Shown here one piece after another: positions 1,416-17,296 of a stretch of 64,000 bases of DNA. The notes beneath the pieces are model-generated. The model was not told where the DNA came from. It searched no databases and was given only the letters and a program-made list of their open reading frames with translations. How positions within the stretch are numbered: the stretch's first letter is position 1; the number at the start of each line of letters is the position of its first letter. The DNA lies in assembly GCA_023382385.1 (NCBI GenBank), contig JAHDVH010000004.1, forward strand, positions 62,001 to 126,000, read 5' to 3'. This DNA comes from a bacterium (GTDB taxonomy: Bacteria > Electryoneota > RPQS01). The translations under genes were made by a program, and so were the position numbers.

Positions 1416-2669
1416 CTATTCGTAACGCAATGCGTCGATCGGATCAAGCCGCGACGCTTTCATCGCCGGCCACATGCCAAAACCGACTCCGACCGCTGTG
1501 CAGAAAATCGTCGCAAGAAACACCGCCCAGACCGGCACCGGTGCGGGGAAGTTCAGATAATTGTTGATAAAGATCGCGACCCCGTATCCCAGAAGAATGC
1601 CGATCGCCCCGCCCACCAAAGACAACGTCGTCGCTTCAATCAAGAACTGACGCAAAATGGAAGATCGCGTTCCGCCAAGGGCCTTCCGCACCCCGATCTC
1701 CCGCGTGCGCTCGGTGACAGATACAAGCATGATGTTCATGATGCCAATGCCGGCTACCAGAAGGGAGATGCCGCATATTCCAAAAGCAGCAATCCCGATC
1801 CACGCAGTCTGCTCCGTGAACTGCTTGTTCAACACATCGGGTGTCCACATGCCAAAATTATTCTCTTCACCCGGCCGCAACCCACGTATGATGCGCATCG
1901 CTTCAATCACCTCCGACTGCGCCTTACGGTAGGCGGTCGGGTCCCACGCCTGGACCGTTAGGTTCACCGACTTTTCGCCGTAGATGCGCTCAAAGGTGGA
2001 CAATGGTATCCAGTTCTCACGATCCTGCGACTCCCCGAACATCTCGCCGCGCTCCTCGAAAACACCAATCACTTCAAACTTCTGCCCGTCAACACGCACG
2101 AAGCTGCCCAGAGGATCCGCTCCAAAGTAAAGCTGCTTGTAGGCGTCATACCCAAGCACGATAACCCGACGCGCAGAGTTAATGTCTTGCTGTGTAACAG
2201 GCCGTCCCAGAGTCAGATAGCGCGAGTTATTCGCTGCGAACTCGATCGATCCTCCGGCGATGCTGTGATCGGCATTTGTCTCAACACCCCCGCGAGTCAG
2301 GCGCCGCCCGAACGTCCATGACTCCACGCCGACCGCTTTCACAGACGGGCAGCGCTCCATTATCTCGGACGCGTAGCTCGCCTCAATCTTCGGCCGCCAT
2401 TTGCGCCTGCGCGGGCCGAATTGGATGCCGCCTTCACTTTCATAGCGCTGTACTTGAAATACGTTTGCGCCAAGCGAATTGAGCATTGCATCGTCAATCT
2501 TATACTTGATCCCGCCAAGCACCGTCATCATAGAGATAATCGTCGCCACACCGATGACCACTCCGATGAGCGTGAGGAAAGCGCGCATCTTGTGGGCGCG
2601 CATAGCTTCCAAAGCCATGCGAAACGATTCCCAATACGAATACAGCGACTTGTATAGCCGGTGGCCCAT
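1416..2669 (-). CDS. MacB/FtsX-type ABC transporter permease (second copy)
   Basis: A 417-residue inner-membrane permease of the MacB_PCD/FtsX class. One membrane segment near residues 28-50 (MRAFLTLIGVVIGVATIISMMTV) is followed by a large periplasmic domain. Three C-terminal membrane segments then include ISLLVAGIGIMNIMLVSVTERTREIGVRKALGGTR, the family's most conserved block. It closes with the usual DPIDALRYE tail. It starts only 4 bp after the first permease stop, so the two are translated together and probably form a heterodimer served by the ATPase at 3960-4667. MacB-like systems extrude lipoproteins, peptides or drugs, or move lipids, through mechanotransmission; the substrate here is unknown. 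Confidence 0.9.
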   Translation of the reverse strand: MGHRLYKSLYSYWESFRMALEAMRAHKMRAFLTLIGVVIGVATIISMMTVLGGIKYKIDDAMLNSLGANVFQVQRYESEGGIQFGPRRRKWRPKIEASYASEIMERCPSVKAVGVESWTFGRRLTRGGVETNADHSIAGGSIEFAANNSRYLTLGRPVTQQDINSARRVIVLGYDAYKQLYFGADPLGSFVRVDGQKFEVIGVFEERGEMFGESQDRENWIPLSTFERIYGEKSVNLTVQAWDPTAYRKAQSEVIEAMRIIRGLRPGEENNFGMWTPDVLNKQFTEQTAWIGIAAFGICGISLLVAGIGIMNIMLVSVTERTREIGVRKALGGTRSSILRQFLIEATTLSLVGGAIGILLGYGVAIFINNYLNFPAPVPVWAVFLATIFCTAVGVGFGMWPAMKASRLDPIDALRYE

Positions 2670-2673
2670 GCTG

Positions 2674-3900
2674 CTACTCCGCGCGCAGCGCCTCGATAGG
2701 AGAAAGCTGCGCCGCCTTCACACTCGGGTAGAGTCCGAAGAAAATCCCGACAATCGCCGAAAAGAGCACGCCGAACACGACAACCCAAATCGGCATATAT
2801 GTCGGCAGGAAATTGCTGATAGCCTGTGATACAACCGCCGCCAACGCAACGCCCACAATCCCACCTATGGCACAGATGACCGCCGACTCTATCAGAAACT
2901 GCCATGCGATGTTCCAGCGCTTCGCACCGAGTGCCTTCCGCAAGCCAATTTCCGCCGTTCTCTCCGTCACCGAGACGAGCATGATGTTCATGATTCCGAT
3001 TCCGCCAACGAGCAGCGAAATAAATCCGATGATTATCCCCCCCGCATAAACTCCTGCGGTCATAGCATTAAACTGCTCAAGAATTGCCGACTGCGAGTTT
3101 ATGCCGAAATCATTCACCTCGCGTGGATCCAATTTCCGCAAGCGGCGCATGATACCCGTCACTTCCCACTTCAATTCCTCAATGCGATCCGCACTCTGGC
3201 CCTTTGCGATAATTGTAAGTCCGTCCGAATTCCGCGAAGCAAAACGCTTCTTAAAGACGCCGTAAGGGATCACGGCAAAGTTATCCCAACTCTGACCGAA
3301 CACCTTTCCGTACTTTGTTGTGACGCCGATCACCTCAAACTTCCAACCGCCGATCTTGATTGTTTGACCCAGTGGAGATTGATCAGGAAAGAGTTGATTT
3401 GCGACGTCTGGGCCAATGACCGCGACTTGCGCATTACGTCCGACTTCCGCTGCAGTGAAGACCCGTCCTTGGGCAAGCTCTTTCGGATTCGTGATGAAGA
3501 AGTCCTCAGAGACACCCTGAACATTGACATTGCTGAGCTGAGCGGCTCTGTAGGATACGGTCATACCCTGATCGTAAAAGGGCGAGACGGCCTCGATTTC
3601 CTGCGATTCCGCGCGCAGTGCGTCAATGTATTCAAGCTCCATGTCGCGGCGCTTGATCATGTCCCGCCAGTTGTGGTTGTTCCAGTCCCAGCGCGACACG
3701 AACACGGTTTCCGCTCCCAGAAAGTCGAGTTGACTTCTGAGTGCCTTGTTCAGTCCCATGACGATGACCACCATCATGATCACGGTCATCACGCCGATAA
3801 CGATGCCCAGCGTCGTCAAACCCGCGCGCAGCTTGTTCGCGCGCAATGCTCCAAAGGCGATGCGCAGGCCGTTCAACAGTTCTGTGAAAAATCGAATCAT
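2674..3900 (-). CDS. MacB/FtsX-type ABC transporter permease (first copy)
   Basis: A 408-residue paralogue of the following gene with the same architecture. The N-terminal membrane helix is near residues 25-48 (LRAGLTTLGIVIGVMTVIMMVVIVMG), then a MacB_PCD periplasmic domain, then three C-terminal helices with GGIGIMNIMLVSVTERTAEIGLRKALGAKR and an LSPIEALRAE end. The two permeases differ clearly in sequence, which fits a heterodimeric exporter rather than a recent duplication. The ATPase gene lies 59 bp upstream. The separation of ATPase and permease into different genes resembles LolCDE-like and Gram-positive MacB-type systems rather than the fused E. coli MacB. Confidence 0.9.
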   Translation of the reverse strand: MIRFFTELLNGLRIAFGALRANKLRAGLTTLGIVIGVMTVIMMVVIVMGLNKALRSQLDFLGAETVFVSRWDWNNHNWRDMIKRRDMELEYIDALRAESQEIEAVSPFYDQGMTVSYRAAQLSNVNVQGVSEDFFITNPKELAQGRVFTAAEVGRNAQVAVIGPDVANQLFPDQSPLGQTIKIGGWKFEVIGVTTKYGKVFGQSWDNFAVIPYGVFKKRFASRNSDGLTIIAKGQSADRIEELKWEVTGIMRRLRKLDPREVNDFGINSQSAILEQFNAMTAGVYAGGIIIGFISLLVGGIGIMNIMLVSVTERTAEIGLRKALGAKRWNIAWQFLIESAVICAIGGIVGVALAAVVSQAISNFLPTYMPIWVVVFGVLFSAIVGIFFGLYPSVKAAQLSPIEALRAE

Positions 3901-3959
3901 GGGATTTCTTGGTTCCAGCTGCGGAAGGCTTGTCCCGTTTTGGAAAACCTGCCGGCTAC

Positions 3960-4667
3960 CTAAGCTGCTCGAGGAATAGACTGGTCCGACTCGATCATGC
4001 CGTCGCGCAGGCGAACGATGCGTCTGGCGTGGCGCGCGATATCTTCCTCGTGTGTCACCAGAATAATCGTGTTGCCGTTCTCATAGATGCGCTCGAGAAG
4101 CTGCATAATTTCTTCGCCGGTTTTTGAATCGAGGTTGCCCGTCGGCTCGTCGGCCAGAATAATGGAGGGGTTGGTCACCAGCGCGCGTGCGATCGCCACC
4201 CGCTGCCGCTGACCACCCGACATTTCATTAGGCTTATGCTTCATGCGGTCGCCAAGCCCGACAGACTCCAAGGCCTCCTTCGCACGTCTGCGCCGTTCCG
4301 AGGGGGATTCACCTGCATAGACGAGAGGGAGTTCCACGTTTTGCAGCGCAGACGCGCGAGGGAGGAGATTGAAAGTCTGAAAGACAAATCCTATGCGGCG
4401 GTTGCGAATGTCCGCGAGTTGACGGTCGGTTAACCCGGCCACCCGCTCGCCAGCCAGAAAGTACTCCCCGCTGGTCGGAGTATCCAAACAGCCGATTAAG
4501 TTCATCAGCGTGGATTTCCCTGAGCCCGAAGGACCCATGATCGCCACGTAATCGTTCTCTTGAATATTCACACTGACGTTGCGCAATGCTTCGACCTTGA
4601 CGGCACCAAGATCGTAGACTTTGCTCAAGTCTTGAATTTCGATAATGGCCTTGCGCTCAGAACTCAT
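3960..4667 (-). CDS. ABC transporter ATP-binding protein (LolD/MacB type)
   Basis: A 235-residue ATPase that powers the adjacent permease pair. It carries a Walker A motif GPSGSGKST (residues 45-53), a Q-loop in [10 protein letters not shown] (Q97), the ABC signature [15 protein letters not shown] (149-163), Walker B with catalytic Glu in [13 protein letters not shown], and the switch His in ILVTHEED. The length and the EPTGNLD motif are typical of the LolD/FtsE/MacB subfamily. It lies 28 bp after the periplasmic adaptor gene and is read from ATG at 4667. Confidence 0.95.
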
Positions 4668-4695
4668 AGTGTCTCCGGAGTATTTCTGAGGGCGC

Positions 4696-5988
4696 TTAGC
4701 CCTGTTCCTTCTTATCTTTGTCGCCCTTCTTCTTCTCTTCGAGTGCGACCTTGTCTTTGTTCTTCATATCGCGTGCCAGCGCGCGGTATGGGCCCGTAAT
4801 CACAGAGTCTCCAACCGATAGTCCGTCCAGAATCTCTATGTAGCGGTCAGCGGCAATTCCGGTCTTGACAGGCCGCCATTGGGCTTCGCCTGCAGCAAAG
4901 ATGAACACGCCGGTTTCCAGTTCGTCCTTTTTTGTCAGCTTCGTCGTGTCTAAAACACCTGCGCTGACCTGCTCCTGCATCTGCCGGGACGAAAGCTCCT
5001 CTGTTTCGCGTGTCAGCGTCACGGCCTCTCCTTCCCCCTTCTTGCGGACCGCAACGGACTGAATGGGAACCGAGAGCGCATCTGTACGGTAGTCTGTCTC
5101 AATGTCCACCGTAGATGACATCCCCGGACGGACTCCCGGAACGCTGTCTATCAAGACCACGCGCACCGTAAAGTTTGTCCCACTGATGTTTGCCCCGAAG
5201 TCTCCAGTGCCTGTCACCGATGATGCCGATTGCGCAATGTCCGTCACTACGCCGCGAAATTTCATGTCGGGAATCGCATCTATCTCCACTCGCGCGGTAT
5301 CTCCGACTTTGACCGAGACAATGTCATTCTCGTCGACATCGGACTTGACTTCCATCTTGCTCAGGTCCGCAACTACCAAGATAACGTCTTCTTGAAATTG
5401 CGACCCCAGAGTCAGCTCACCGACTTCCTTATTCAGCACGGAAATTGTCCCGGACATTGGAGAACTTAGACGCGTCTTTCGCAAATTGTCGCGCGCTTGG
5501 CGCTCTTGTGCCTCGGCACGCTCCAAATCTGCTTCGGCAAGTTGAGCAGCCGCGAGCGCGCCGTCCAGGTCGGCCTGCGAGGCCATGCCGCGAGTAACCA
5601 GTTCAGAAATGCGCTTGTAATCCGCGTCGGCCTTCAGTTTGTTGGCTCGTGCAGACTTCAAGCTCGACTTTGCCGCATCCAGAGTTGAATTGTAGATTTC
5701 CGGATCGAGTTCAACCAGAAAATCGCCCTGCTTAACGACATCCCCTTCGCGAACGGCAAGTTTTGTGATACGACCTGGTATTTCGGCCGATATCTTCACT
5801 TTTGTAACAGGTTCCACAGTCCCTTCAGCGGAGACAGTGGCGGTCAATGAGCGAGTCGCGGCCGTCTCAACGGTCACCTGTGCCGATGGCTTGTTCTTGT
5901 TTTTCTGCTGCTGGTAGGCTCCTAAGCCAACCACAGCCAAAACAACCAGTATAACAATCCACAGGATACGCTTGTTTCGTTTCTTCAT
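4696..5988 (-). CDS. MacA/HlyD-family periplasmic adaptor of the ABC efflux system
   Basis: A membrane-fusion protein of about 430 residues that bridges the inner-membrane transporter to the periplasm or outer membrane. A single N-terminal membrane helix ([20 protein letters not shown]) is followed by a lipoyl/barrel-sandwich half ([32 protein letters not shown]). An alpha-hairpin coiled coil follows (about 85-155), then the second lipoyl half ([20 protein letters not shown]) and beta-barrel domains. The C-terminus is unusually Lys-rich and charged. I chose ATG at 5988; an in-frame GTG at 6003 (adding five residues) is an alternative, since neither has a strong ribosome site. It is the first gene of the minus operon. 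The leader at 6046-6061 holds a perfect 7-bp inverted repeat (AGCCGCC/GGCGGCT) that could form a hairpin. Confidence 0.88.
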
Positions 5989-6179
5989 AGGAACACCAAT
6001 CACCCACCAAATTTGCTAATTGTGCAGGCTTCTCAGCCTATTGGCAGCCGCCCCGGCGGCTCTGTTAGTAAGGAGAGAATCTTGAGCTAAAATGTTGCAG
6101 AGCCGCTTCATTCTGTGGTCCCCTTCTTGCACAGCACCTGCCAGATGACCGCTTTTTGTGAACAGACGGAGACGATCGC

Positions 6180-8759
6180 ATGACGCCAGCCAAGCCCACC
6201 CCAGGTGCTGAACTTGTTGAACCCCTGCGCCAATTCCTTGAGTCATTTACCCAAGAGCTTACCGAACAACAGTTTATCCCAGCTTTCAGAGGAGAGCTTG
6301 GAAAGCTCGCCGAGGGTCTGGACAATATACAACAGTCTGGTGAAACCCTGCAACAGATTGCGCGGGGAGTTGACCGTCTGCGTGATGTCTTTGCCCCAGC
6401 AGGCACCAGAATGCTCGAGGGGGTCAAGGATTTAGAGACCCAGCTCAAGGCCGGAGGTGACCAACTCCGCAACCGAGCCGAAGAGGTGCTCTTGCAGCTT
6501 CAGACGACCCATCGCGAGCTGGAACAGGCTCTGCGCGCCGAATCGGGATTACTGGTCGACCAAAACTCAGCCAGCCGTGAAGCGTTGGGACGACTCGCCA
6601 TAGATGTCGAAGAACAACTTAAGAGCTTCTCCGGTAAGCTCGATGCTCTTTGCCGCAAGGCGGAACAGGAGATTGAACAGATCTCGCAGCTCTCGACACG
6701 TGTCGCCGAGCAGGTCACCGATCAGCAGATTCAATCGTCGCAACCACAACCGATGTCCGCTCCTGCGCCCATGGCGGTCGCTGCAAATACCGAAGAGTTC
6801 TCACAGTTGCTCGCGCGGACGGAGAGCACGGTATCGGAGGAACTCGCGCGCTATTCCTCAGAACTGCGCGATTTGCTTTCGTCGAACACCAAGGATCACG
6901 GCGAACGTCTTGCGAAGATCGACAAGACCATTGACGAAGCGTTGCGCACTGTCGCTCCGCGAGTCCAGTCGGAACTTGACAGCGCACTCGCCCGTTTACG
7001 TGACCAAATGGACGCCATCGTCCGCGCCGAACGCGAATTGCCCCTTGCGGAAAGCGCAGAAACTCCGGTCCCAGCCGTCGTGGATACAAGCTCCTTTGTG
7101 ACCGCTTTGAGTAGTGCGGAGAACAGAATTCTGCGCGAGTTTGACGAACAGCGCAAGTCGGGTGCACAAGACTTGAGCGAGATTCAAAAAGGGCTCGCTG
7201 ACTTTGCGCTTGATTTGGCCGAAGTCACGGAAAAGCAGACCGAGCGTATCGAGCGTGAACAGCAGGTGGTTAAAGAACTGCTCCTCAAGCTCGAGCGCAT
7301 GGCGAAAGAGCGCTCCGCTGTTCTTGCCAAAGTAGGCAGGCAAATCGACGACCAGAGTCAGTCGGTTGAAACTCTTCGCAATGTTGTTGCGCAGTCCGGC
7401 ACGCAGATGCAGCAGCAGGTCGGACAGGTTTCTGAGCAGTTGGGTTCGCAGCTGTCGCTGCTGCGCTCGCAAGGTGACCAGCTTGGCGCGCTCCAGCAGG
7501 CGGAAGATGAGCGATTTACGCATGTGCGCGGTTTTCTGACGCGATTGGATGAGCAGGCGAACAAGCTCGTCGACCTGCAATCACAGGAGACGCGAGCTAC
7601 CCGCGAACGTATTGAGACGAGCATCGCCGAACTGCGCAGCCGCTGGGACGGCCGACTGGAGCAACTTACACAAAAGTCGGCAGAGATTGCTGTAAAACTT
7701 TCGCAAGAGCTGGGCGGACAGCTGGATGAGATGAAACAGGAGGTCGGTCATCGTCTTCATGATCTGGGGGAAGCACTTCGATCGGACCTGACACGCTTCG
7801 ACAACGTAGTGCGCGAACAGTCCAAACATCAGGAAGCCCAGAACCGCGATCTCGCCACTGAAGTGTCCCGCGTCACCGGATTGATTGACGAGAAACTCTC
7901 CAATTTCGAGTCTCGCCGCGAGGAAAACGAACGGTTCACGAGGGCCATCGAATCCCACGTCAAGGTCGTCGCTACTGAAGTCAGCGCACTGCGCTCAAAA
8001 CAGCAGGAGCAGCTCGAAGTCCTGAAGGAAGCTATCCGCGCCAACTACGACGACAACGCTGCCCGCTTGAAAGAAGTCTTTGACGGAGCCTACGACCGAT
8101 TCCTTGAGCAGATCCGCACGATTCCCCAAACATTAGAGCGTTACTCAAAATTCATCGAAACGATGAATCAGAGCAATCAGCTTGCGCTGCAAGGCATCGC
8201 GGGGACAGCAGAAAATATCCTGACGGTAACCAGCGAACTGAAATCCGACAACGAAGCGCAGAAGAAGTTCTTCCCGCTGCTTAATAAGTCGCTCGAGAAG
8301 CACGGACAGATGCTTGAAGCCGTCCGCCGCTCGCAATCTGACCATGACAAGAACTTTTCGCAAACCGGAAAGTCCCTGCAGGAGACGCGTGAAGAGGTAA
8401 CACGATTTCTGATCGATTTGAAGGGAGAACTGCGCCGCGTTGAAGGCGCGGAACAGACTAGACTCTCGGAACTTGTGCAGATGCTCGGCACAACCTTCTC
8501 GGAACTTGAGAAACTTCAACGCAATGACCTGCCCGCTTTCCGCCGTGAAGTGATTCAGCTTGTCCAGTCCAAGTTTGAATTTATCGAGACAACTCAAGCT
8601 GAACGACTCACCGCGCTGAAGGCTGAGCTCAACGAACAGCTGGAAGCTCAGCAAAAGGTTGCCCGAAAGGACGCCAAGCTGCTGGCTGTTTTGGTTGCAC
8701 TCGGTGTGTTCGCGCAGTTCGCGCTGCATTACAAGCTCTTTTCATTCCTGTTGCCCTAA
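6180..8759 (+). CDS. Long coiled-coil protein with a C-terminal membrane anchor, unrecognised
   Basis: An 859-residue protein with no signal peptide. Nearly all of it is charged, Glu/Gln/Leu-rich helix with heptad-like spacing, resembling apolipoprotein/MCP-like or tropomyosin-like coiled coils. A short Pro/Ala-rich interruption falls near residue 187 (SSQPQPMSAPAPM). The only hydrophobic stretch is at the extreme C-terminus (LLAVLVALGVFAQFALHYKL, about 835-855), so it should be tail-anchored in the inner membrane with the coiled coil in the cytoplasm. The ATG at 6180 follows GGAG. The stop is 12 bp before the next gene, with which it forms a two-gene unit ending at a terminator at 10350. I do not recognise a family; a structural, scaffolding or partitioning role is only a guess. 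Confidence 0.8.
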   Translation: MTPAKPTPGAELVEPLRQFLESFTQELTEQQFIPAFRGELGKLAEGLDNIQQSGETLQQIARGVDRLRDVFAPAGTRMLEGVKDLETQLKAGGDQLRNRAEEVLLQLQTTHRELEQALRAESGLLVDQNSASREALGRLAIDVEEQLKSFSGKLDALCRKAEQEIEQISQLSTRVAEQVTDQQIQSSQPQPMSAPAPMAVAANTEEFSQLLARTESTVSEELARYSSELRDLLSSNTKDHGERLAKIDKTIDEALRTVAPRVQSELDSALARLRDQMDAIVRAERELPLAESAETPVPAVVDTSSFVTALSSAENRILREFDEQRKSGAQDLSEIQKGLADFALDLAEVTEKQTERIEREQQVVKELLLKLERMAKERSAVLAKVGRQIDDQSQSVETLRNVVAQSGTQMQQQVGQVSEQLGSQLSLLRSQGDQLGALQQAEDERFTHVRGFLTRLDEQANKLVDLQSQETRATRERIETSIAELRSRWDGRLEQLTQKSAEIAVKLSQELGGQLDEMKQEVGHRLHDLGEALRSDLTRFDNVVREQSKHQEAQNRDLATEVSRVTGLIDEKLSNFESRREENERFTRAIESHVKVVATEVSALRSKQQEQLEVLKEAIRANYDDNAARLKEVFDGAYDRFLEQIRTIPQTLERYSKFIETMNQSNQLALQGIAGTAENILTVTSELKSDNEAQKKFFPLLNKSLEKHGQMLEAVRRSQSDHDKNFSQTGKSLQETREEVTRFLIDLKGELRRVEGAEQTRLSELVQMLGTTFSELEKLQRNDLPAFRREVIQLVQSKFEFIETTQAERLTALKAELNEQLEAQQKVARKDAKLLAVLVALGVFAQFALHYKLFSFLLP

Positions 8760-8771
8760 GCGGAGTGACCG

Positions 8772-10325
8772 ATGTCTGCTCACTTTGAGAAATCGGCCAA
8801 TGCCGCCCTTTCGTTTCTGACCAATCTGCTCCAATATGCGGGACAGGATTCAGGCCGCATGGCTGCGCCACAGCTACTGGAGCTGCTCACGCTCTGCCGT
8901 GAAACAGGTCTTAGATTACCGGTACTCGAAACATACAGCCGAGTCCACGACCTCCCGCCGGCGGTCATACTCCTCGGCGGCGATGCGGAACTCGCGGCGG
9001 CACTGGCACATTGCGTAGGACTGAATGCTGAACTGCGGCACGTTCCCGAGACTCCCATACTTTGGTGGGTTGAACCCGGCGACGTAGAGCGCACACTCAT
9101 CCAAGTTAAAGACTCCGAGCGCGAACTGTCCGAAAGTGCCCTGAATGCACTCTTAAGTTCGCCGCTGCCGCCAGATCGCGTAACGGTGGTGAAGAGGATT
9201 GTCCGCACGGAGTTCGCGTGGCGTTTCGCCTGGCTGCCTGATGTCGAAGGATTGGCTCTTCATGCCGCGTGGCCGACCGTTATGGAAGCCATGCTCGCCG
9301 CGCAGGTGATGATCAACATCGGCGATGAGATTCACGCCGCCTTCGCTCCGTGGTTTGCACGCCCAGGCTTGATCGCCCGTCAATACACTGGCACCGAGAT
9401 ATGCCGCGATGATGTGCGACCGATGTTACTCTCCGGCCTCTTCGCGATGCGCGAGCAGTCTTATGCTGAACAGCAGGCGGTACTCGCGGCGACGTGGAAG
9501 TTTATTCTGCCGCGAATGGTGGACGAACTCGACGCGCTCCGACAACAGTATACTCTGGATATCGATCGTCAGAATATCAAGCTTCAGACAACGCGCCAGA
9601 TGCTCAGCGAATATCGCCGCAATTGGAGCAATTCGATACGCAATATCGTGGAAGACTACTTCACAAAGAAAGAGTCCGGCCCCGCGTTCGCCGCTCTGTT
9701 GGACCCGCGCCAACCCGGTCCACAGCCTGCCACCTACGTACAGGCGTTGAGTCTGTCCACCTTGTGGAAGCGATTGAATGAAGTCATGACCGACAAGATG
9801 GCGGAATTCGTGCAAGGATTAAGCGCGCTCGCCACCCGTATTGAATTGCGCAACATTTCGCTGAAGGAAGTGGAAGTCCGCTGGGTCCCGAATCAGTTGG
9901 CAGCAAGCATTGAGGAAGAACTCTCGAACAAGCAGATCTTCCGCGCTGGAGGCGGAGAGCGTTCCGGTATCGTCGGCACGCTAACCGGTAAAAAGGACGA
10001 AATCGCGCAACAGCGCCGCTCGCAGATTCTGCGTGCCAATAAGATCGCCTTTAACCTCATCGATCAGGACTTTGTGCTCTGGAGTGACCGCGTCCTGCAC
10101 GCCATTGAGCAGCGCGTGCGGGTGCAATTGACCGCAGCGCAAATCAACCAAGGGCTTCCGGATATCGAAATGCTACGCACAGGATTGACCGGCATCGACC
10201 GCCTGACGGCCATGCTGGAAGGCAACCGCGAGGGAACGCGAGTCGAGCCGCCCAAGCGCGCCGCCGCTACTCTGGCCGGATGGGTCGGGCGCCGCTGGTT
10301 CCGTCGCTTTGCCCCTTCAGCCTAA
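8772..10325 (+). CDS. Unrecognised 517-residue protein, possibly a degenerate dynamin-like protein
   Basis: No family was recognised with confidence. The N-terminal third has the layout of a P-loop GTPase without its residues. PPAVILLGGDAELAAALAHC (about 65-84) sits where a dynamin-like protein would have a strand and a GxxxxGKS loop. WRFAWLPDVEGL (about 154-165) sits where DxPG would be, and it is followed by a hydrophobic helix-strand (TVMEAMLAAQVMINIGDE). The Lys/Ser of Walker A and the DxPG Asp-Pro-Gly are absent. From about residue 190 the protein is helical and charged, ending in a basic, Trp-rich tail (GWVGRRWFRRFAPSA) that could touch membrane. No signal peptide or transmembrane helix is seen. 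ATG 8772 follows CGGAGTG. It is cotranscribed with the coiled-coil tail-anchored protein. The GTPase-fold idea is inference. Confidence 0.75.
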   Translation: MSAHFEKSANAALSFLTNLLQYAGQDSGRMAAPQLLELLTLCRETGLRLPVLETYSRVHDLPPAVILLGGDAELAAALAHCVGLNAELRHVPETPILWWVEPGDVERTLIQVKDSERELSESALNALLSSPLPPDRVTVVKRIVRTEFAWRFAWLPDVEGLALHAAWPTVMEAMLAAQVMINIGDEIHAAFAPWFARPGLIARQYTGTEICRDDVRPMLLSGLFAMREQSYAEQQAVLAATWKFILPRMVDELDALRQQYTLDIDRQNIKLQTTRQMLSEYRRNWSNSIRNIVEDYFTKKESGPAFAALLDPRQPGPQPATYVQALSLSTLWKRLNEVMTDKMAEFVQGLSALATRIELRNISLKEVEVRWVPNQLAASIEEELSNKQIFRAGGGERSGIVGTLTGKKDEIAQQRRSQILRANKIAFNLIDQDFVLWSDRVLHAIEQRVRVQLTAAQINQGLPDIEMLRTGLTGIDRLTAMLEGNREGTRVEPPKRAAATLAGWVGRRWFRRFAPSA

Positions 10326-10349
10326 TCCTCTCAGAGTCTCCAAAGTTTG

Positions 10350-10377
10350 ACGGCCCGCCCGATTTGCGGGCCGTTTT
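10350..10377 (+). terminator. Intrinsic terminator of the coiled-coil gene pair
   Basis: A perfect 9-bp stem ACGGCCCGC/GCGGGCCGT with a 7-nt loop, followed by TTTGTCTCTATTT. It lies 25 bp after the stop of the 517-residue gene and separates it from the outer-membrane operon. Confidence 0.85.
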
Positions 10378-10428
10378 GTCTCTATTTCCTTGATTTTTCG
10401 GGCACTTTTCGCGTTATTACTTAATGGT

Positions 10429-12336
10429 ATGAGATGCTTCCGAAAAATACTTGTCGTCTTGGCCCTCCTTCTGCTCGCGTGGCCTCGCTTCGCCGCGCGC
10501 GCTGACTTCACTCTCGCCGAATACGAAGATTGGCAGCGTTATACCGGCTGGCTCATACGCGTCATCGAGTTTCCCGGAATCCACAGCTTCGCTCGCGCCA
10601 ATCTTCTCGAAGTGATGGCAACTGAGAAACCAACGTGGCTCCGCCGCTATGCCCCCATCGGCAGCCGCTCCATCTTCTACGCCGATGACTTCGCCGCAGA
10701 CTTGCTCCGTGTTCAGAACTTCTATCGCCGGGAAGGCTTTCCCTCTGCCGTGGTGAGAGGCAAGGTCTACCCGAATGAAGCGAAAGAGGAGCTGCGTGTC
10801 CTCGTCGAGATTGAAGAAGGTTCTCCCCTGCTGCTGCGCAATTGGAGATTTGAGCAGGTCGGCTCTGCGCGTGCGCAAATGGATTCCGCTCGCTGGTCGC
10901 GATCCTTGCCCATCCGATCCGGCAAGAGACTCGCCGAGACCGATTTGCAGGCTGCGGCGGATACGCTCGTGCGCAGACTGCAATCCATCAGTCACGCACG
11001 CGCCAAAGTCACCTTTGACACATTGAATGTCTATAACGACTCCGCCGATGTCGTCCTGATCATCGACGCCGGTCCCTACTGCCGTTTCGGTCAGACGCGA
11101 ATCACCGGACTCAAACAAATTGAGGAAAGTGCCGCACGTAGAGAGCTTGAATACGAACCTTACGACCCTTACACGCCGCGCGCGCTCGATGAAACACGCA
11201 AGAACCTCTTGCGCCTTGAGGCCTTTAGGATGGTCCGCACCGATGTCGACTTATCCCAAGACTCAGACACGCTCGATGTCCTCATTCGCACTGAAGAAGG
11301 CAATCGTTATTTCGTGAGACTCGGCGCCGGCTTGGACGCCGAGGAGGGGGCGCACGTCTCCGGTCAGTTAACCGACTTGAATTTCTTCGGACGGGCGCGC
11401 CGCTTTACCTTCGAAACTTCCGCCGCTGACATCTTCAATCGCCGTGGAAACATCGACGGCGCTTCCGGCATCTTTAATGATATCGAACGAATCGACCGCA
11501 AAGTCGGATTTTCCCTCTTCTGGCCCCACACTCCCTACAACGCGACCGACATTACAATCAAGCCGTCCTGGGAGTACGAGTACAAGAGCGGAACCATTGT
11601 CCGTACACTGTCCGCCACAACCCGTCTCTCGGCAACGCCGTTGCACCGAGTGGCTGCATCCGTCTCCAACGAGTTCGGCCGGCAGGATGTCCTCGTTGAC
11701 ACAGTCGGAAGCACAAACGTCGTCAGCACTATTTCCATTGAGTCGTTTGACATCGGATGGGATACCCGCGACAATCCGTTGATGCCGCGGCGCGGGCACG
11801 TGCTGAGCGCAACCCTCTCCGAATCCGGTCTGCTCTGGGACATTGACAACCGCTGGTGGCAAACCGTTTTCGGCGGCAGAGCTTTGATTCCCATTGATCA
11901 ATTCACAGTTGCGGCAGTGCGCGGTGAAGTTGGATTCATGGGTCCTTTGCATCAGTCCACGCAGACTCCCGTGCAGGAACGCTTCCGCCTCGGCGGAGTC
12001 GCGAATGTACGCGGCTGGGGACGTGACATGATCGGACCGCGTGCGACAGACGACAATAATGTCATTCTCGGCGGTGACCATTCCTTCTTCGGTACATTCG
12101 AAATTCAGCGGGACGTTTGGGGACCCGTCGGACTTGCGCTGTTCACCGACGTGGGAAATGTCTGGCCAAAGGCGAAGGACGCACAGTTAAGCGACCTCTA
12201 CCCGTCTGCCGGGCTTGGGTTGCGATTCATGACGATTGTGGGACCAATCCGATTGGATGTCGGTTATCAGCTCCGCAAAAATCCTTATGACGAACCGCCG
12301 TGGGCCTACCATATTCTGCTGGGGTCACCCTTCTAA
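10429..12336 (+). CDS. Omp85/BamA-family outer-membrane protein (first of two)
   Basis: An outer-membrane barrel of 635 residues with N-terminal POTRA repeats. The signal peptide is MRCFRKILVVLALLLLAWPRFAARA. POTRA-like units run to about residue 300 (for example AGPYCRFGQTRITGLKQIEESAARRELEYEPYDPYTPRALDETRKNLLRLEAFRMVRTDVDL in part). The C-terminal surface-antigen barrel contains DTRDNPLMPRRGH and FRLGGVANVRGWGRD, the latter the VRGY/F-like lid-lock motif here as VRGW. The terminal residue is Phe (LLGSPF), the classic outer-membrane sorting signal. I chose ATG at 10429; an upstream TTG at 10390 would place extra residues before the signal peptide. Its stop overlaps the TamB start. It may act as BamA or, given the TamB neighbour, as a TamA partner. 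Confidence 0.88.
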   Translation: MRCFRKILVVLALLLLAWPRFAARADFTLAEYEDWQRYTGWLIRVIEFPGIHSFARANLLEVMATEKPTWLRRYAPIGSRSIFYADDFAADLLRVQNFYRREGFPSAVVRGKVYPNEAKEELRVLVEIEEGSPLLLRNWRFEQVGSARAQMDSARWSRSLPIRSGKRLAETDLQAAADTLVRRLQSISHARAKVTFDTLNVYNDSADVVLIIDAGPYCRFGQTRITGLKQIEESAARRELEYEPYDPYTPRALDETRKNLLRLEAFRMVRTDVDLSQDSDTLDVLIRTEEGNRYFVRLGAGLDAEEGAHVSGQLTDLNFFGRARRFTFETSAADIFNRRGNIDGASGIFNDIERIDRKVGFSLFWPHTPYNATDITIKPSWEYEYKSGTIVRTLSATTRLSATPLHRVAASVSNEFGRQDVLVDTVGSTNVVSTISIESFDIGWDTRDNPLMPRRGHVLSATLSESGLLWDIDNRWWQTVFGGRALIPIDQFTVAAVRGEVGFMGPLHQSTQTPVQERFRLGGVANVRGWGRDMIGPRATDDNNVILGGDHSFFGTFEIQRDVWGPVGLALFTDVGNVWPKAKDAQLSDLYPSAGLGLRFMTIVGPIRLDVGYQLRKNPYDEPPWAYHILLGSPF

Positions 12337-15300
12337 TGCGGAACTGGATACTCAGACTGCTGCTTTGGCCGTTTGCGTTTCTCGCTGCGCTCGCAGTCGC
12401 GGCATACTTCCTTATCCAGTATGAACCCGTCCAGCAATTCGCCGCGCGGCACACTTTGGCGTTTGTCAATCGCGAGATCGCTGGATCCATTCAACTCGAA
12501 CGTGTTGGACTGACTTTAGACGGCCGCGTTGCACTGAGGGACTTTGCTCTGTTCAGTGACGGCGGTGAGCAACTTCTTTCTGCTAAACGACTCCACGCGC
12601 GCGTTGCTCCGTGGGACCTCGTATTCGGAAAGCTGCATTTGTATAGTGTGAAAGTGGAGGAATTGCGCGGCATTGTAGAGATTGACTCTACAGGAGACAA
12701 CATTACTTCCGCACTCGCAACACCTCCCGCCCTGGAACCTGACACTACCTACACCCCGCTCTGGCTGCGGCTGAATCGCGTGAATCTTGATATAGACTCG
12801 GTCGTTCTGCTGATTGACTCAAGTTTCTCGTATACAGCGCGCGACTGGACTGTTCTTGCAGACGCACTCATCACTGATTCAGTCATCACATACGTGGGAA
12901 CTGTTGAGGCGAAGAACCAGTTCACTCTTGCAAGCAATGGGGTTGTGCGCCCCTACTCCGATTCGTTGTTTGCCGGAGACGTCGAAGTTTCGAGCACCTC
13001 GCAGTATCTCATGACTGACTGGCTGCCGGACTTCCCCGATCTTGGCGCGATAAACTTGACAGCACGCGGAGACGTGCTTACACGGGATCTGATGGCAGTG
13101 TTCGACGTCTCCGTGGAGAAGGTAGGTCATGCCAAAGGTGACATTGAGATACTCGACTACGCAGACTCCGCGCGCGTTTCTATTGGCACCGAGTTTCGGA
13201 ATATTGATCTGGCTTACTGGATCGGTGACTCCGTCGCGCATCAACTCAATGGCCGCGCTGCCTTGACAAAAAGCACCTCTCCCGAATGGACGCATGACTG
13301 GTTCGGCCGAGTGGAACTTGACAGCTCGTACTACGGCGCAATAGAAGTAAGAGCAGATCTCGAAGCTCAACTCTTTGAATCCGCAGCTTCCGTAGCAGGC
13401 GCGGTGCATTCCAACGCAGGTAGTTTCGAATTGCGGGTTAATAGTGGCGGTCTTTCCGCGGATTCTCTTGACTTAAGTGGTCGTGCCGTGCTAAGTGGCG
13501 CGCAACTTCACGCTTTCGTCCCCGAGATTCCTGACTCGCTTTCTCCATTGTCCGGTCTCGTGGAATTCTCTTTTGAGCAGGGGCCTGGCTCCAAGCTGTC
13601 CGCGGATGCAACGGTTGCACTTGGCTCGCTGTCATTTGGGCGCTACGCGTTAGATAGCCTAACCTTCAAGGCTACGCTCGACGGCACACATTTCACACTT
13701 GACTCCACGAGCTTGCGGATCGGTTCCGCTTCCTCCCTGCTCTTTGCGTTTGGAGATTACACTGATCGTATCTCCGCAGTCATTTCGCTGAATGTTCCGA
13801 AGATTGAGGAATTCCGGGATCTGCTCGTGTCTTTCACTCCGCAGCTCGACTCTCTCGGTGGTGATCTGCGGGCGGAAATGACTGCCGAGCTTACGTTTGA
13901 CGACGATAGCATAAGCAATGTCACCGCCCGCGGTAAAGCAAATCTTGATCGATTCACCTACGGTACGTATAGCGCGTCCGGAGTCTCTGTCGAGGTGCAT
14001 TCCGTTGAAACTGCGGCCGAGCTGTTCACTGCACAGATTGCGGTCGATTCGCTTTATGTCTTTGACGAAAGCGTGACACCAATCATGTTAGCTCTCGATG
14101 GTTCATGGTTCACGCCTGAATTCACATGCTCTCTGTCTGTCCGGCATGATACGCTCGAACTCGCGGCCGTCGGACGGATCGATCTTGCAGGCACTCCATT
14201 GCTGATCGAACTAGACACGCTCAGCCTGAACCTCTTTGGCACAAGCTGGGCAAATGACTTTCCCATAGAACTTTCTTTGGACAGCTCGCACTATGAAGTC
14301 GGCGCGCTCATTCTGAGATCCGACTTCGGCGTGCTGCGCGCGACCGGTTACCTCGAACAACCCGGCACGCAGGACATTGTGCTGGAGTTCTCCGGATTGC
14401 AGACCGGTAAGTTGACACCAATTCTGCGCACCGAAATTCCCGACGGTAATCTTAACCTCCGTCTCCAGCTGTCCGGTCCGGACACAGCCATCACGGGTAA
14501 TATCGAAATGCTCCTTGACGCCGTTACCTATCAGGAATCGCAGCTTGCGGATCGCGTGCGGCTCGTTGGGATCGTGGCAGATGGAAGTGTGACTGCCAAT
14601 CTCGATTACATTTGGCAAAATGACACCGCGCTGACCATTCACGCCGCATTGCCTGCTTCCCTGACAATTGCAGATGGACTGATAGTTTCCAAGGGCGATT
14701 CTTTGCAAGGGACGATGAGGATCGACTCTTTGCCGTTGTCGCGCTTTCAGCCGTGGATGACCCAGGGCATCCGAGTGGAAGGATCCCTTTCCGCAAATCT
14801 CGCACTCTCCGGAAGCGCAGAACAACCGGACTGGTCCGGCACGCTACACTTGGACAACGGCTTCTTCGGTGACAACCGTCACGGTATCGCGTACAAGTGG
14901 ATTCTGCTGGATGCAGATCTCATTCGTGACTCACTGCGTATCAACACCCTGCGGGCGACCAGCCGCGGCACTGTCACAGGCGGCGGATTCGCCAAACTCG
15001 GCGTGCCGTGGCCGGAATCGCTTTCACTCGATCTGCACTTCGATAAGTTTGAAGCCTTCTCGTCCCGCATTCAAAAAGCTCGCCTCGACGGGAACCTCTT
15101 CGTCGGCGGACCGTTTGACTCTTTGAACGTTGTAGGAAATTTAGCGGTGCAGGAAGGCTTTTACCGTATTACACAATCGGCGACTAAGGACATCGAACTG
15201 GTCAATATCGACAGCGTTCTTGCCGGTTTGCGAGGGGACACTCTTGCCGAAGGATTTGATCCGGATGCCTTCTACAATTCTCTTGCCCATGACCTGAACG

Positions 15301-16022
15301 TGAAGATTCCCGGGAACTTCTGGATTCGTGGCAACGGTATGAATCTTGAATTGTTTGGTGAGCTGCGAGTCGAGAAGGAGCACAACGAACTGCCAACCGC
15401 CAATGGCGAGATTCTCATTCGCAAAGGCAAGGTGAAGTTCTACGGCCAGGAATTGCGCATTCAGGAAAATTCAAGTCTGCGGTTCGACGGTCCGCCTGAA
15501 GTTCCTGACTTGAACATCACTGCAATCTACTCCGGGATTGACAAATCACGCGGACCGTTCGAGGTCACTGTCACTCTTACCGGAACACCCGACCAATCCA
15601 AGGCCGAGTTCAGCGGCCAGTTCGACAACGGCACGGCTATGTCGCAAGAGGAGGCAATTCAAAGACTGCTCCCCTTTGTCGGCGGCACCGGTGGCTCGGC
15701 TGAGCAGGCCGTTGCAGATGCGGCCAGCGGCCAAGTCTCAGAGATTGTCGGCAAGGCTTCCGGACTTGACGTGTTCGAATTCCGACCGGGTGAAGGTGGA
15801 TTGAGCGACCTCTCCAGTGCGCAGCTCGAAATTGGAACTTATGTCACTGATCGTCTGTTCATTCGCGTGTTCCAGCCTATCGAAGACCCTCGTTCGGGTC
15901 AAAAGGTCTCTATCGATTACCGACTGCTTGATTGGATGAAGTTCACCGCTGAACAAACCACCGCCGAGCAGGGCAGGCCCAGCAGTTCCTTCACCGTATA
16001 CCTGCAATTCGAATGGCGATAA
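12336..16022 (+). CDS. tamB: TamB-like translocation and assembly protein (DUF490 family)
   Basis: A 1228-residue protein with one N-terminal membrane helix (ILRLLLWPFAFLAALAVAAYFLI) and a very long beta-rich, Asp/Ser/Leu-repeating body typical of the AsmA/TamB bridge proteins that link inner and outer membranes. The C-terminal TamB/DUF490 domain is recognisable by GEILIRKGKVKFYGQELRI, FSGQFDNG, LEIGTYVTDRLFIRVFQ and the ending FTVYLQFEWR. TamB proteins help insert outer-membrane proteins or carry phospholipid across the periplasm. The start ATG at 12336 shares a base with the TAA of the upstream Omp85 gene (TAATG). Its own end overlaps the next Omp85 gene by 10 bp, a strong sign of coupled translation. 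Confidence 0.9.
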   Translation: MRNWILRLLLWPFAFLAALAVAAYFLIQYEPVQQFAARHTLAFVNREIAGSIQLERVGLTLDGRVALRDFALFSDGGEQLLSAKRLHARVAPWDLVFGKLHLYSVKVEELRGIVEIDSTGDNITSALATPPALEPDTTYTPLWLRLNRVNLDIDSVVLLIDSSFSYTARDWTVLADALITDSVITYVGTVEAKNQFTLASNGVVRPYSDSLFAGDVEVSSTSQYLMTDWLPDFPDLGAINLTARGDVLTRDLMAVFDVSVEKVGHAKGDIEILDYADSARVSIGTEFRNIDLAYWIGDSVAHQLNGRAALTKSTSPEWTHDWFGRVELDSSYYGAIEVRADLEAQLFESAASVAGAVHSNAGSFELRVNSGGLSADSLDLSGRAVLSGAQLHAFVPEIPDSLSPLSGLVEFSFEQGPGSKLSADATVALGSLSFGRYALDSLTFKATLDGTHFTLDSTSLRIGSASSLLFAFGDYTDRISAVISLNVPKIEEFRDLLVSFTPQLDSLGGDLRAEMTAELTFDDDSISNVTARGKANLDRFTYGTYSASGVSVEVHSVETAAELFTAQIAVDSLYVFDESVTPIMLALDGSWFTPEFTCSLSVRHDTLELAAVGRIDLAGTPLLIELDTLSLNLFGTSWANDFPIELSLDSSHYEVGALILRSDFGVLRATGYLEQPGTQDIVLEFSGLQTGKLTPILRTEIPDGNLNLRLQLSGPDTAITGNIEMLLDAVTYQESQLADRVRLVGIVADGSVTANLDYIWQNDTALTIHAALPASLTIADGLIVSKGDSLQGTMRIDSLPLSRFQPWMTQGIRVEGSLSANLALSGSAEQPDWSGTLHLDNGFFGDNRHGIAYKWILLDADLIRDSLRINTLRATSRGTVTGGGFAKLGVPWPESLSLDLHFDKFEAFSSRIQKARLDGNLFVGGPFDSLNVVGNLAVQEGFYRITQSATKDIELVNIDSVLAGLRGDTLAEGFDPDAFYNSLAHDLNVKIPGNFWIRGNGMNLELFGELRVEKEHNELPTANGEILIRKGKVKFYGQELRIQENSSLRFDGPPEVPDLNITAIYSGIDKSRGPFEVTVTLTGTPDQSKAEFSGQFDNGTAMSQEEAIQRLLPFVGGTGGSAEQAVADAASGQVSEIVGKASGLDVFEFRPGEGGLSDLSSAQLEIGTYVTDRLFIRVFQPIEDPRSGQKVSIDYRLLDWMKFTAEQTTAEQGRPSSSFTVYLQFEWR

Positions 16023-17296
16023 TCCGCGCACTCTCCGTACTGCTTGTTTTCACTGCACTGTGCGCCGCAGAGTCGCCAGATCGGTTGCCCGTCACGCACA
16101 TCGAGTTAGTCGGCAATCGCACGACAAAGGACTGGGTCATTCTCCGTGAGCTGCGCTTCTCTGTCGGAGACAGTGTCGCGCCGCAGGACCTCGAGGCCGC
16201 ACGTTTACGGCTCTTGTCCTTAAGCATCTTCAATAACGCCCGCGTCACTCAGGATGCTTCAGGTGCCGTTTCGATCACAGTCTCAGAGCAGTTTCGCTTT
16301 ATCCCGATTCTCAGCGCCAGCGCGGTCGAAGGCACCGTCAATGATGCGCTGAAGGAACCAAAGCGAATCCCTGACATTCTTGTGCTGTTGATCGGCGCCG
16401 CCGATATCAATCACGCGGGAACCGGAGCTTTTGTCGGCGCATACGGAGTTATCGGTGCGCGCACCGGAATTAACCTTGAATACTATTCCCGCTGGCTGTC
16501 ACCCAAATTGCCCTTGTCACTTGAGTTCGGTGCTCGCTCACTGAAAATTTCAGATCGTCACGCATCGGTTCTCGGTTACTCGCGCCGTCTGCGCAATGAC
16601 CGGGCTTATGTCAAACTTTCCACCCGCAGGGGTGCACCCTCCCGCGTCGGGCTGAATCTCGCTTTTGACGGCGTCAAGGAAGACGACTTCCTTCCCGCAG
16701 CAGGCAAACGCTACAACGTAGGCTGGGTTGCTCCCTTCGTAATTCTGGATCGTAGAAACCTCGAATGGTATCCGACCGAAGGGATGTTCGCGCGCGGGGA
16801 CGTCGAGCAGGCCTTTGGTTCAGATGTGTTCATGATGTCCAGTGCCGTGTTAGCTGCCTACTTGCCCTTTGCAGAAGGGTCGCGCGGCCCCTCTCTTGCT
16901 GCGCGCATCTATGGCGGAACCTCACAGAACAACACTCCTCCGTGGTCGCACTACTACTTCGGCTTTTCCAAAAAGTTTCGAGGCTATTCCGCCGAGCAGG
17001 TTGAAGCGTCAACGTATCTGTCTGGTGAATGCGAGTTCCGTTTCCCTATAACCCGCGAAGTCACCTACAACGTTCCTATAGCTGGTCGCTACGGCAAAGA
17101 CATTCCGTTCTGGCTTGGTGGAGCGCTCTTCTTTGAACGCGCGCAGACTCAGCTCGATGGTACGCGCAACGATGTTTGGGCCGGCGGCGCCGCGTTGCAT
17201 ATCCGTTTCCCCTACGTGCAGGTCATCGAAATCAGTGCGGCGCGAAACCGCGCCAACCAATTGGATTTGGTCTTCTCCACCGGAGTGCGATTCTAA
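16013..17296 (+). CDS. Omp85-family outer-membrane protein (second, short POTRA region)
   Basis: A 427-residue barrel. The signal peptide MAIIRALSVLLVFTALCAA is followed by a single recognisable POTRA domain (VTHIELVGNRTTKDWVILRELRFSVGDSV, then LLSLSIFNNARVT) and a surface-antigen-type barrel with FSKKFRGYSAEQVEASTY (an FRGY lid motif). It ends in Phe (VFSTGVRF). It is shorter than BamA (about 800) or TamA (about 580), resembling the small one-POTRA Omp85 proteins of FCB bacteria. It starts inside the end of tamB and its TAA overlaps the pyrD ATG (TAATG). With the first Omp85 it brackets TamB, so one of the two is probably TamB's outer-membrane partner. Confidence 0.85.
   Translation: MAIIRALSVLLVFTALCAAESPDRLPVTHIELVGNRTTKDWVILRELRFSVGDSVAPQDLEAARLRLLSLSIFNNARVTQDASGAVSITVSEQFRFIPILSASAVEGTVNDALKEPKRIPDILVLLIGAADINHAGTGAFVGAYGVIGARTGINLEYYSRWLSPKLPLSLEFGARSLKISDRHASVLGYSRRLRNDRAYVKLSTRRGAPSRVGLNLAFDGVKEDDFLPAAGKRYNVGWVAPFVILDRRNLEWYPTEGMFARGDVEQAFGSDVFMMSSAVLAAYLPFAEGSRGPSLAARIYGGTSQNNTPPWSHYYFGFSKKFRGYSAEQVEASTYLSGECEFRFPITREVTYNVPIAGRYGKDIPFWLGGALFFERAQTQLDGTRNDVWAGGAALHIRFPYVQVIEISAARNRANQLDLVFSTGVRF

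Follow-up and report, generated by a model that had tools for sequence, protein, structure and literature searches.

The window analysed here is a 64,000-nucleotide stretch of contig JAHDVH010000004.1 (assembly GCA_023382385.1), from a bacterium of the class RPQS01, which has been placed within the candidate phylum Electryoneota (PMC10439189). Our subject is a pair of adjacent genes in this window, here called A and B, which lie on the forward (+) strand, as do the features within them and the genes downstream that we locate below. Gene A (6180..8759) encodes an 859-amino-acid coiled coil with a C-terminal membrane anchor and an N-terminus predicted to be cytoplasmic, and gene B (8772..10325) encodes a 517-amino-acid protein that its predicted fold marks as a probable pseudo-dynamin. 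An open reading frame check returned both genes, with the coordinates and the 12 bp spacing given in the original prediction, an earlier reading made from the letters of the window alone. A Shine-Dalgarno-like GGAG site precedes B at 8762-8765. The pair had been said to end at one terminator, and a G+C-rich intrinsic terminator with a 10-pair stem does lie 3' of B (10349..10375). Three relatives have a similar terminator, but examination of six others found none, so its presence is not constant. As far as sequence can tell, A and B are real genes, beyond chance, because their frames are conserved across the class in the same order, with B ranging from 62% down to 24% identity to the window protein.

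Searched singly and as a profile, B had no significant match in Pfam, NCBIfam, PADLOC or the PDB sequences; the best profile match, to potassium-channel beta-2 (E 0.15), is at chance level. No dynamin family in Pfam (PF00350 Dynamin_N and its relatives) matched B or any member of its family, and B equals no described family or system in the libraries searched. We modelled the protein with AlphaFold both at full length (3-sequence alignment; mean predicted local distance difference test score, pLDDT, 71.8; predicted template modelling score 0.55) and as residues 55-230 alone (3-sequence alignment; pLDDT 67.1). When the full-length model was compared with the PDB by Foldseek, all 50 of the best matches belonged to the dynamin superfamily, among them BDLP (E 1.1e-8), Drp1, the Campylobacter Cj-DLP pair, Mx, IniA, Mgm1, OPA1 and mitofusins. 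The isolated domain likewise drew its top 50 matches from this superfamily alone, with BDLP the best (template modelling (TM) score 0.53 over the query) and mitofusins, IniA, Cj-DLPs and EHD4 also present. In the Foldseek viral library, nine matches reached E <= 0.001, of which seven were named dynamin and two were nameless.

In the predicted architecture, N-terminal helices come first, and then a dynamin-type GTPase-like alpha/beta domain (residues 60-230; 8949..9461), found in both models and by Foldseek. Its elements are, in order, strand 64-68, helix 72-81, strands 96-102, 107-112 and 115-119, helix 121-129, strands 138-144 and 150-155, helix 168-176 and strands 177-183 and 201-205. A neck- or stalk-like helical body occupies residues 231-490 (9462..10241), with helices at 231-301, 328-356, 404-460 and 465-490. 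A dynamin G domain with long neck and stalk helices after it would show this order of elements. Structure prediction with fold comparison had been set beforehand as the check on the dynamin-like strand and loop layout and the helical body that the original prediction proposed; a GTPase-like core is present in the model, the helical body follows it, and the proposal was not refuted. We consider it very likely, though not proven, that B has the fold of a dynamin and is a pseudo-dynamin.

The residues with which dynamins handle guanosine triphosphate (GTP) are missing from this fold. At the position of the G1 P-loop, B reads GGDAELAA (residues 69-76; 8976..8999), with no GKS/T, and at the position of the G3 DxPG motif it reads WRFAWLPD (residues 150-157; 9219..9242), with the Asp and Gly absent. 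The same holds beyond the window: GxxxxGK[S/T] occurs nowhere in the sequence of any of the 10 B members, the G3 column is WRxxW[L/I/V]P-like, Trp standing where Asp would be, and holds the G3 motif in none of them, and the G4 [N/T]KxD position varies (TGTE/RRGD/SKDD-like) and also lacks its motif in all 10. The predicted loss of the P-loop Lys/Ser and of DxPG is thus seen in window B and in every member, and the alignment shows the nucleotide-binding motifs to be lost from B, as read from sequence, in the whole lineage. Other positions are invariant across the family (W98, W150, W154, Y281, N284, W285, R415 and W437), and P156 is strongly conserved. The absence of G1, G3 and G4 alongside these invariant positions suggests selection on structure, not catalysis. 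Since the strongly conserved W150, W154 and P156 fill the very columns concerned, the GTP site appears to have been structurally re-used rather than merely eroded. GTP hydrolysis by B is predicted to be absent. By strict definition, B, if the modelled fold is right, should be called a dynamin-fold pseudoGTPase rather than a dynamin, because the features that define catalysis in the dynamin superfamily are absent from it.

Two further motifs lie in the C-terminal part of B. Residues 388-410 (9933..10001) form a Gly-rich basic loop, F..GGGxRxGxVGxLTGxK, in which F390 is invariant and G395, R397, V401 and G406 are nearly so; AlphaFold models its residues 393-404 at low confidence between helices 376-386 and 404-460. 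This loop is a candidate membrane-contact tip. Its G[IL]VGxLTGxK stretch superficially resembles a P-loop, with the wrong spacing and outside the alpha/beta domain. The Trp/Arg-rich tail noticed earlier comprises residues 503-517 (10278..10322), where an RRW motif is found in the nearest relatives and the sequence is variable further out.

In protein A, hydrophobic residues recur with a period near 3.5-3.6 through most of the sequence, and there is little Trp (0.1%) or Pro (2.1%). The coiled coil is broken near residues 181-205 and 288-302 by linkers rich in Pro, Ala and Gln, so that the earlier figure of about 830 coiled-coil residues was slightly generous. The anticipated C-terminal anchor is the only hydrophobic helix in A (residues 832-850; 8673..8729), with a Kyte-Doolittle value of 1.85 over 19 residues, the maximum for the protein, and a short tail after it; in the relatives read, A likewise has a hydrophobic C-terminal segment. 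A single transmembrane helix at 832-850 of 859 residues, an N-terminus that is not hydrophobic and the lack of a signal peptide are the features of a tail-anchored protein. With its anchor at the C-terminus and no signal peptide, the rod is expected to be cytoplasmic, and on these predicted features A is a tail-anchored coiled-coil rod of the inner membrane.

A is unevenly conserved. The best conserved N-terminal block covers residues 57-90 (6348..6449; LQQIARGVDRLRDVFAPAGTR..., in full GVDRLRDVFAPAGTR), with 72% identity to the window over residues 61-90 and with L57, Q59, V64, L67, F71, P73, A74, G75 and R77 invariant. A membrane-proximal block at residues 601-720 (7980..8339) retains 43-67% identity, and a second such block, also well conserved, spans residues 781-810. 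Within the rod (residues 391-570) identity is 14-31%, the sequence drifting while the length changes little. Such a pattern is what would be expected of a rod with functional ends. No nucleotide-binding domain was found in A with Pfam or NCBIfam. An Apolipoprotein match (43 bits) was below the cut-off of 90, and matches to SMC, ZorA, SpiroCoCo and JetC were either below cut-off or limited to coiled coil.

Both genes are widespread in the class of the host. With B as the query, matches were found in 11 of the 13 class genomes searched, and A homologues in 12. The two genomes without B (G004 and G005) are both broken at the locus, the contig ending inside A in the former and just upstream of tamA in the latter. 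All B frames are open, that of G009 being cut by a contig end. From this distribution, with its open frames and with both misses at contig ends, the pair belongs, as judged by sequence comparison, to the core of the class and has been passed on vertically. The two genes stand side by side wherever both are assembled, and their frames overlap or stand no more than 18 bp apart in 8 of 10 genomes; the spacing is 63 bp in one of the remaining loci (L011) and unplaceable in the other (L010), which lacks a clear start codon. A and B form a fixed, co-inherited gene pair.

Beyond the class, B was found in 0 of 26 genomes drawn from other classes within the phylum, even when a profile of ten members served as the query, and a scan of contigs added just two loci, both of the same class. 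Phage and plasmid collections gave no B match. Searches of two further phyla, represented by 1 genome (G039) and 101 genomes (G040), also gave none, which is weak evidence because no positive genome was among those searched.

The pair sits in a conserved neighbourhood. Downstream of B in the window are a tamA-like Omp85 gene (10390..12336; Pfam Omp85 and POTRA), tamB (12300..16022; Pfam TamB, 1.9e-38) and a second Omp85/POTRA gene (16013..17296; Pfam Omp85, 7.5e-9), and tamA is directly 3' of B in all 10 B loci read. In the window and in two named relatives, bacterium isolate SJ276 (L025) and a candidate division KSB1 bacterium (L026, contig RPQS01000034.1), the order runs from divergent MacB-type permeases, an ABC ATPase and an HlyD-type gene to A, B, the tamA-like Omp85 gene, tamB, the Omp85/POTRA gene and a pyrD-like gene. 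Gene-neighbour conservation, the last of the checks proposed at the outset, is borne out: the pair and its neighbourhood are kept across the class. The upstream genes (1416-6003) make up a divergent MacAB-type export operon with two permeases, an ATPase and an HlyD-like gene, seen also in both named relatives and partly in L097. The placing of tamB between two Omp85/POTRA genes (10390-17296), followed by the pyrD-like gene, recurs in the same two relatives. When we searched around tamA in other classes of the phylum, tamA stood beside tamB and neither A nor B was nearby.

Several known systems resemble this pair in part. BDLP1 of Nostoc (PDB 2j69) and the mitofusins, the best fold matches of both B models, share with B a GTPase-like domain followed by a long helical neck or trunk; unlike B, which lacks G1, G3 and G4, they are working GTPases with G1-G4, and they have no detectable sequence similarity to it. 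Bacterial dynamin genes usually occur as dynamin pairs, and Campylobacter Cj-DLP1/2 and Escherichia coli LeoABC match A-B in being side-by-side operon genes with a dynamin fold and a membrane setting (PMC6104087, PMC4159319). In these systems both partners are dynamin-like and carry GTP motifs, whereas here B is dead and its neighbour A, instead of a second dynamin-like protein, is a tail-anchored coiled coil with a transmembrane helix. A likeness in organisation alone, with no homology claimed, is that to Drp1 and Mff, a cytosolic dynamin-family protein and its C-tail-anchored receptor (PMC5765209), although these are eukaryotic, Drp1 is an active GTPase and Mff is about 30 kDa against the 859 residues of A. 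GTPase folds that serve as a scaffold or interface without catalysis are known in CENP-M and p190RhoGAP (PMC10211241), but these are eukaryotic non-dynamins. We found no bacterial pseudo-dynamin described in the open-licence literature.

We also looked for active dynamins elsewhere in the class genomes. A search with Dynamin_N (PF00350) gave low-scoring matches in 12 of 13 class genomes; of the 11 frames read, which included nine class genomes, 10 were MnmE-like and 1 was Der-like, and one 660-amino-acid match region held an ABC-F ATPase. No active dynamin partner was recognised among these 11 frames, weaker second matches having been read only in part. A search with PF18709 gave zero matches, controls included, and is hence uninformative. 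In one genome (G011, L049:3-1190), a Roc/Roco-like GTPase frame (VVGEGGVGKT...WDFGGQ) adjoins the mnmE-like gene.

Taken together by analogy, these features suggest a GTP-independent scaffold. A would serve B as receptor and spacer at the membrane, after the manner of the tail-anchored Mff with Drp1; B would assemble through its stalk-like helical body, its dead G domain having become a protein-protein interface, and would contact lipid through the Gly-rich basic loop. The resulting assembly of the two would be static and would lie on the cytoplasmic side of the inner membrane as a scaffold or tether, serving envelope organisation, possibly in the neighbouring TamA/TamB pathway. That A and B act together is probable, and from their gene order we infer a direct interaction. 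For the view that B is a GTP-independent scaffold with a dynamin fold, which A keeps at the inner membrane, the case for and the case against seem to us about equal, and we judge a membrane scaffold role for the pair to be just as evenly poised. A link to the translocation and assembly module (TAM) pathway is put forward tentatively. Of the roles first suggested, envelope organisation fits the tamA/tamB setting, and defence is disfavoured.

Several points weigh against this scaffold. Both models of B are of middling confidence and were built on shallow alignments, and no dynamin matched B at the sequence level. The TM-scores are low (0.2-0.36 for full-length B, and 0.53 at best for the domain), the full-length values being expectable because the protein is long and hinged and its alignment shallow. 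B may bind nucleotide via migrated residues, and our searches may have passed over a divergent active dynamin elsewhere in the genome, with the weaker second PF00350 match of the host left unread. That A binds B, that B binds membrane and that either is tied to TAM we infer only, and in the window a terminator stands between B and tamA.

A possible, if doubtful, alternative is an accessory role for A and B in the work of TamA and TamB: they would position the inner-membrane end of the periplasm-spanning TamB or couple it to the cytoplasm. The N-terminus of TamB is located in the inner membrane, and the invariable presence of tamA next after B speaks for such a role; the strong terminator behind B, seen in the window and in three relatives, the tamA and tamB genes of other classes that do without A and B, and the lack of any known direct link speak against it.

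Three other explanations appear unlikely to us, each to much the same degree. The first is that B still uses nucleotide, unconventionally or in a site completed by a partner. Bacterial dynamin-like proteins as a rule work in pairs and may be inactive alone, as with monomeric LeoA and the interdependent Cj-DLP1/2 (PMC6104087, PMC4159319), and migrated catalytic residues are known in some pseudoenzymes (PMC10211241). LeoA, however, retains most hydrolysis residues (PMC4159319), while all 10 B members are without G1, G3 and G4, A offers no nucleotide-binding domain and no active dynamin-like protein was recognised in the class. The second is a signalling platform in which B would be the docking domain and bring a membrane sensor into alignment, much as RdcA and RdcB (YjdA/YjcZ) activate E. 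coli DgcE. In that case a soluble dynamin-like protein, its gene paired with that of a non-dynamin partner, does act on a membrane protein (PMC6510439), but RdcA requires GTP hydrolysis, RdcB, unlike A, is small, soluble and without a membrane anchor, and no cyclase or sensor gene adjoins A-B. The third is that modelling has produced the dynamin match as an artefact, B being an unrelated alpha/beta and helical protein. The 3-sequence alignments, a pLDDT of about 70 and the missing sequence match would allow this, yet the whole-protein and the domain-only models both yield only dynamin-superfamily structures in their top 50, with the expected element order. An anti-phage defence pair, suggested by the weak ZorA profile matches of A and by the dynamin-like proteins found in defence contexts, is very improbable, since those matches are limited to coiled coil and do not extend to the MotA/ExbB-type proton channel domain of ZorA, A has a single transmembrane helix and MacAB-type ABC genes and B, not ZorB, for neighbours, no mobile or defence genes stand beside the locus, which is vertically inherited at one chromosomal site class-wide, and the phage and plasmid collections gave no match to B.

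Returning to the GTP-independent scaffold, its boldest form would be a nucleotide-independent dynamin across the class, its fold retained under selection as a pure membrane scaffold that is controlled through the rod of A instead of a GTP cycle and that acts with TamA/TamB to move lipid or protein from one membrane to the other; we think this rather unlikely. Dynamins are regarded as GTP-driven machines. If the scaffold reading is true, a lineage would have fixed, in a conserved cluster next to genes for outer-membrane assembly, a dynamin-fold protein that has no GTP site; the scaffold role of the fold would be separable from what the motor adds, and bacteria would have a receptor-plus-dynamin layout resembling that of Mff and Drp1. 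The pair suggests that evolution can keep the dynamin shape without the GTP engine.

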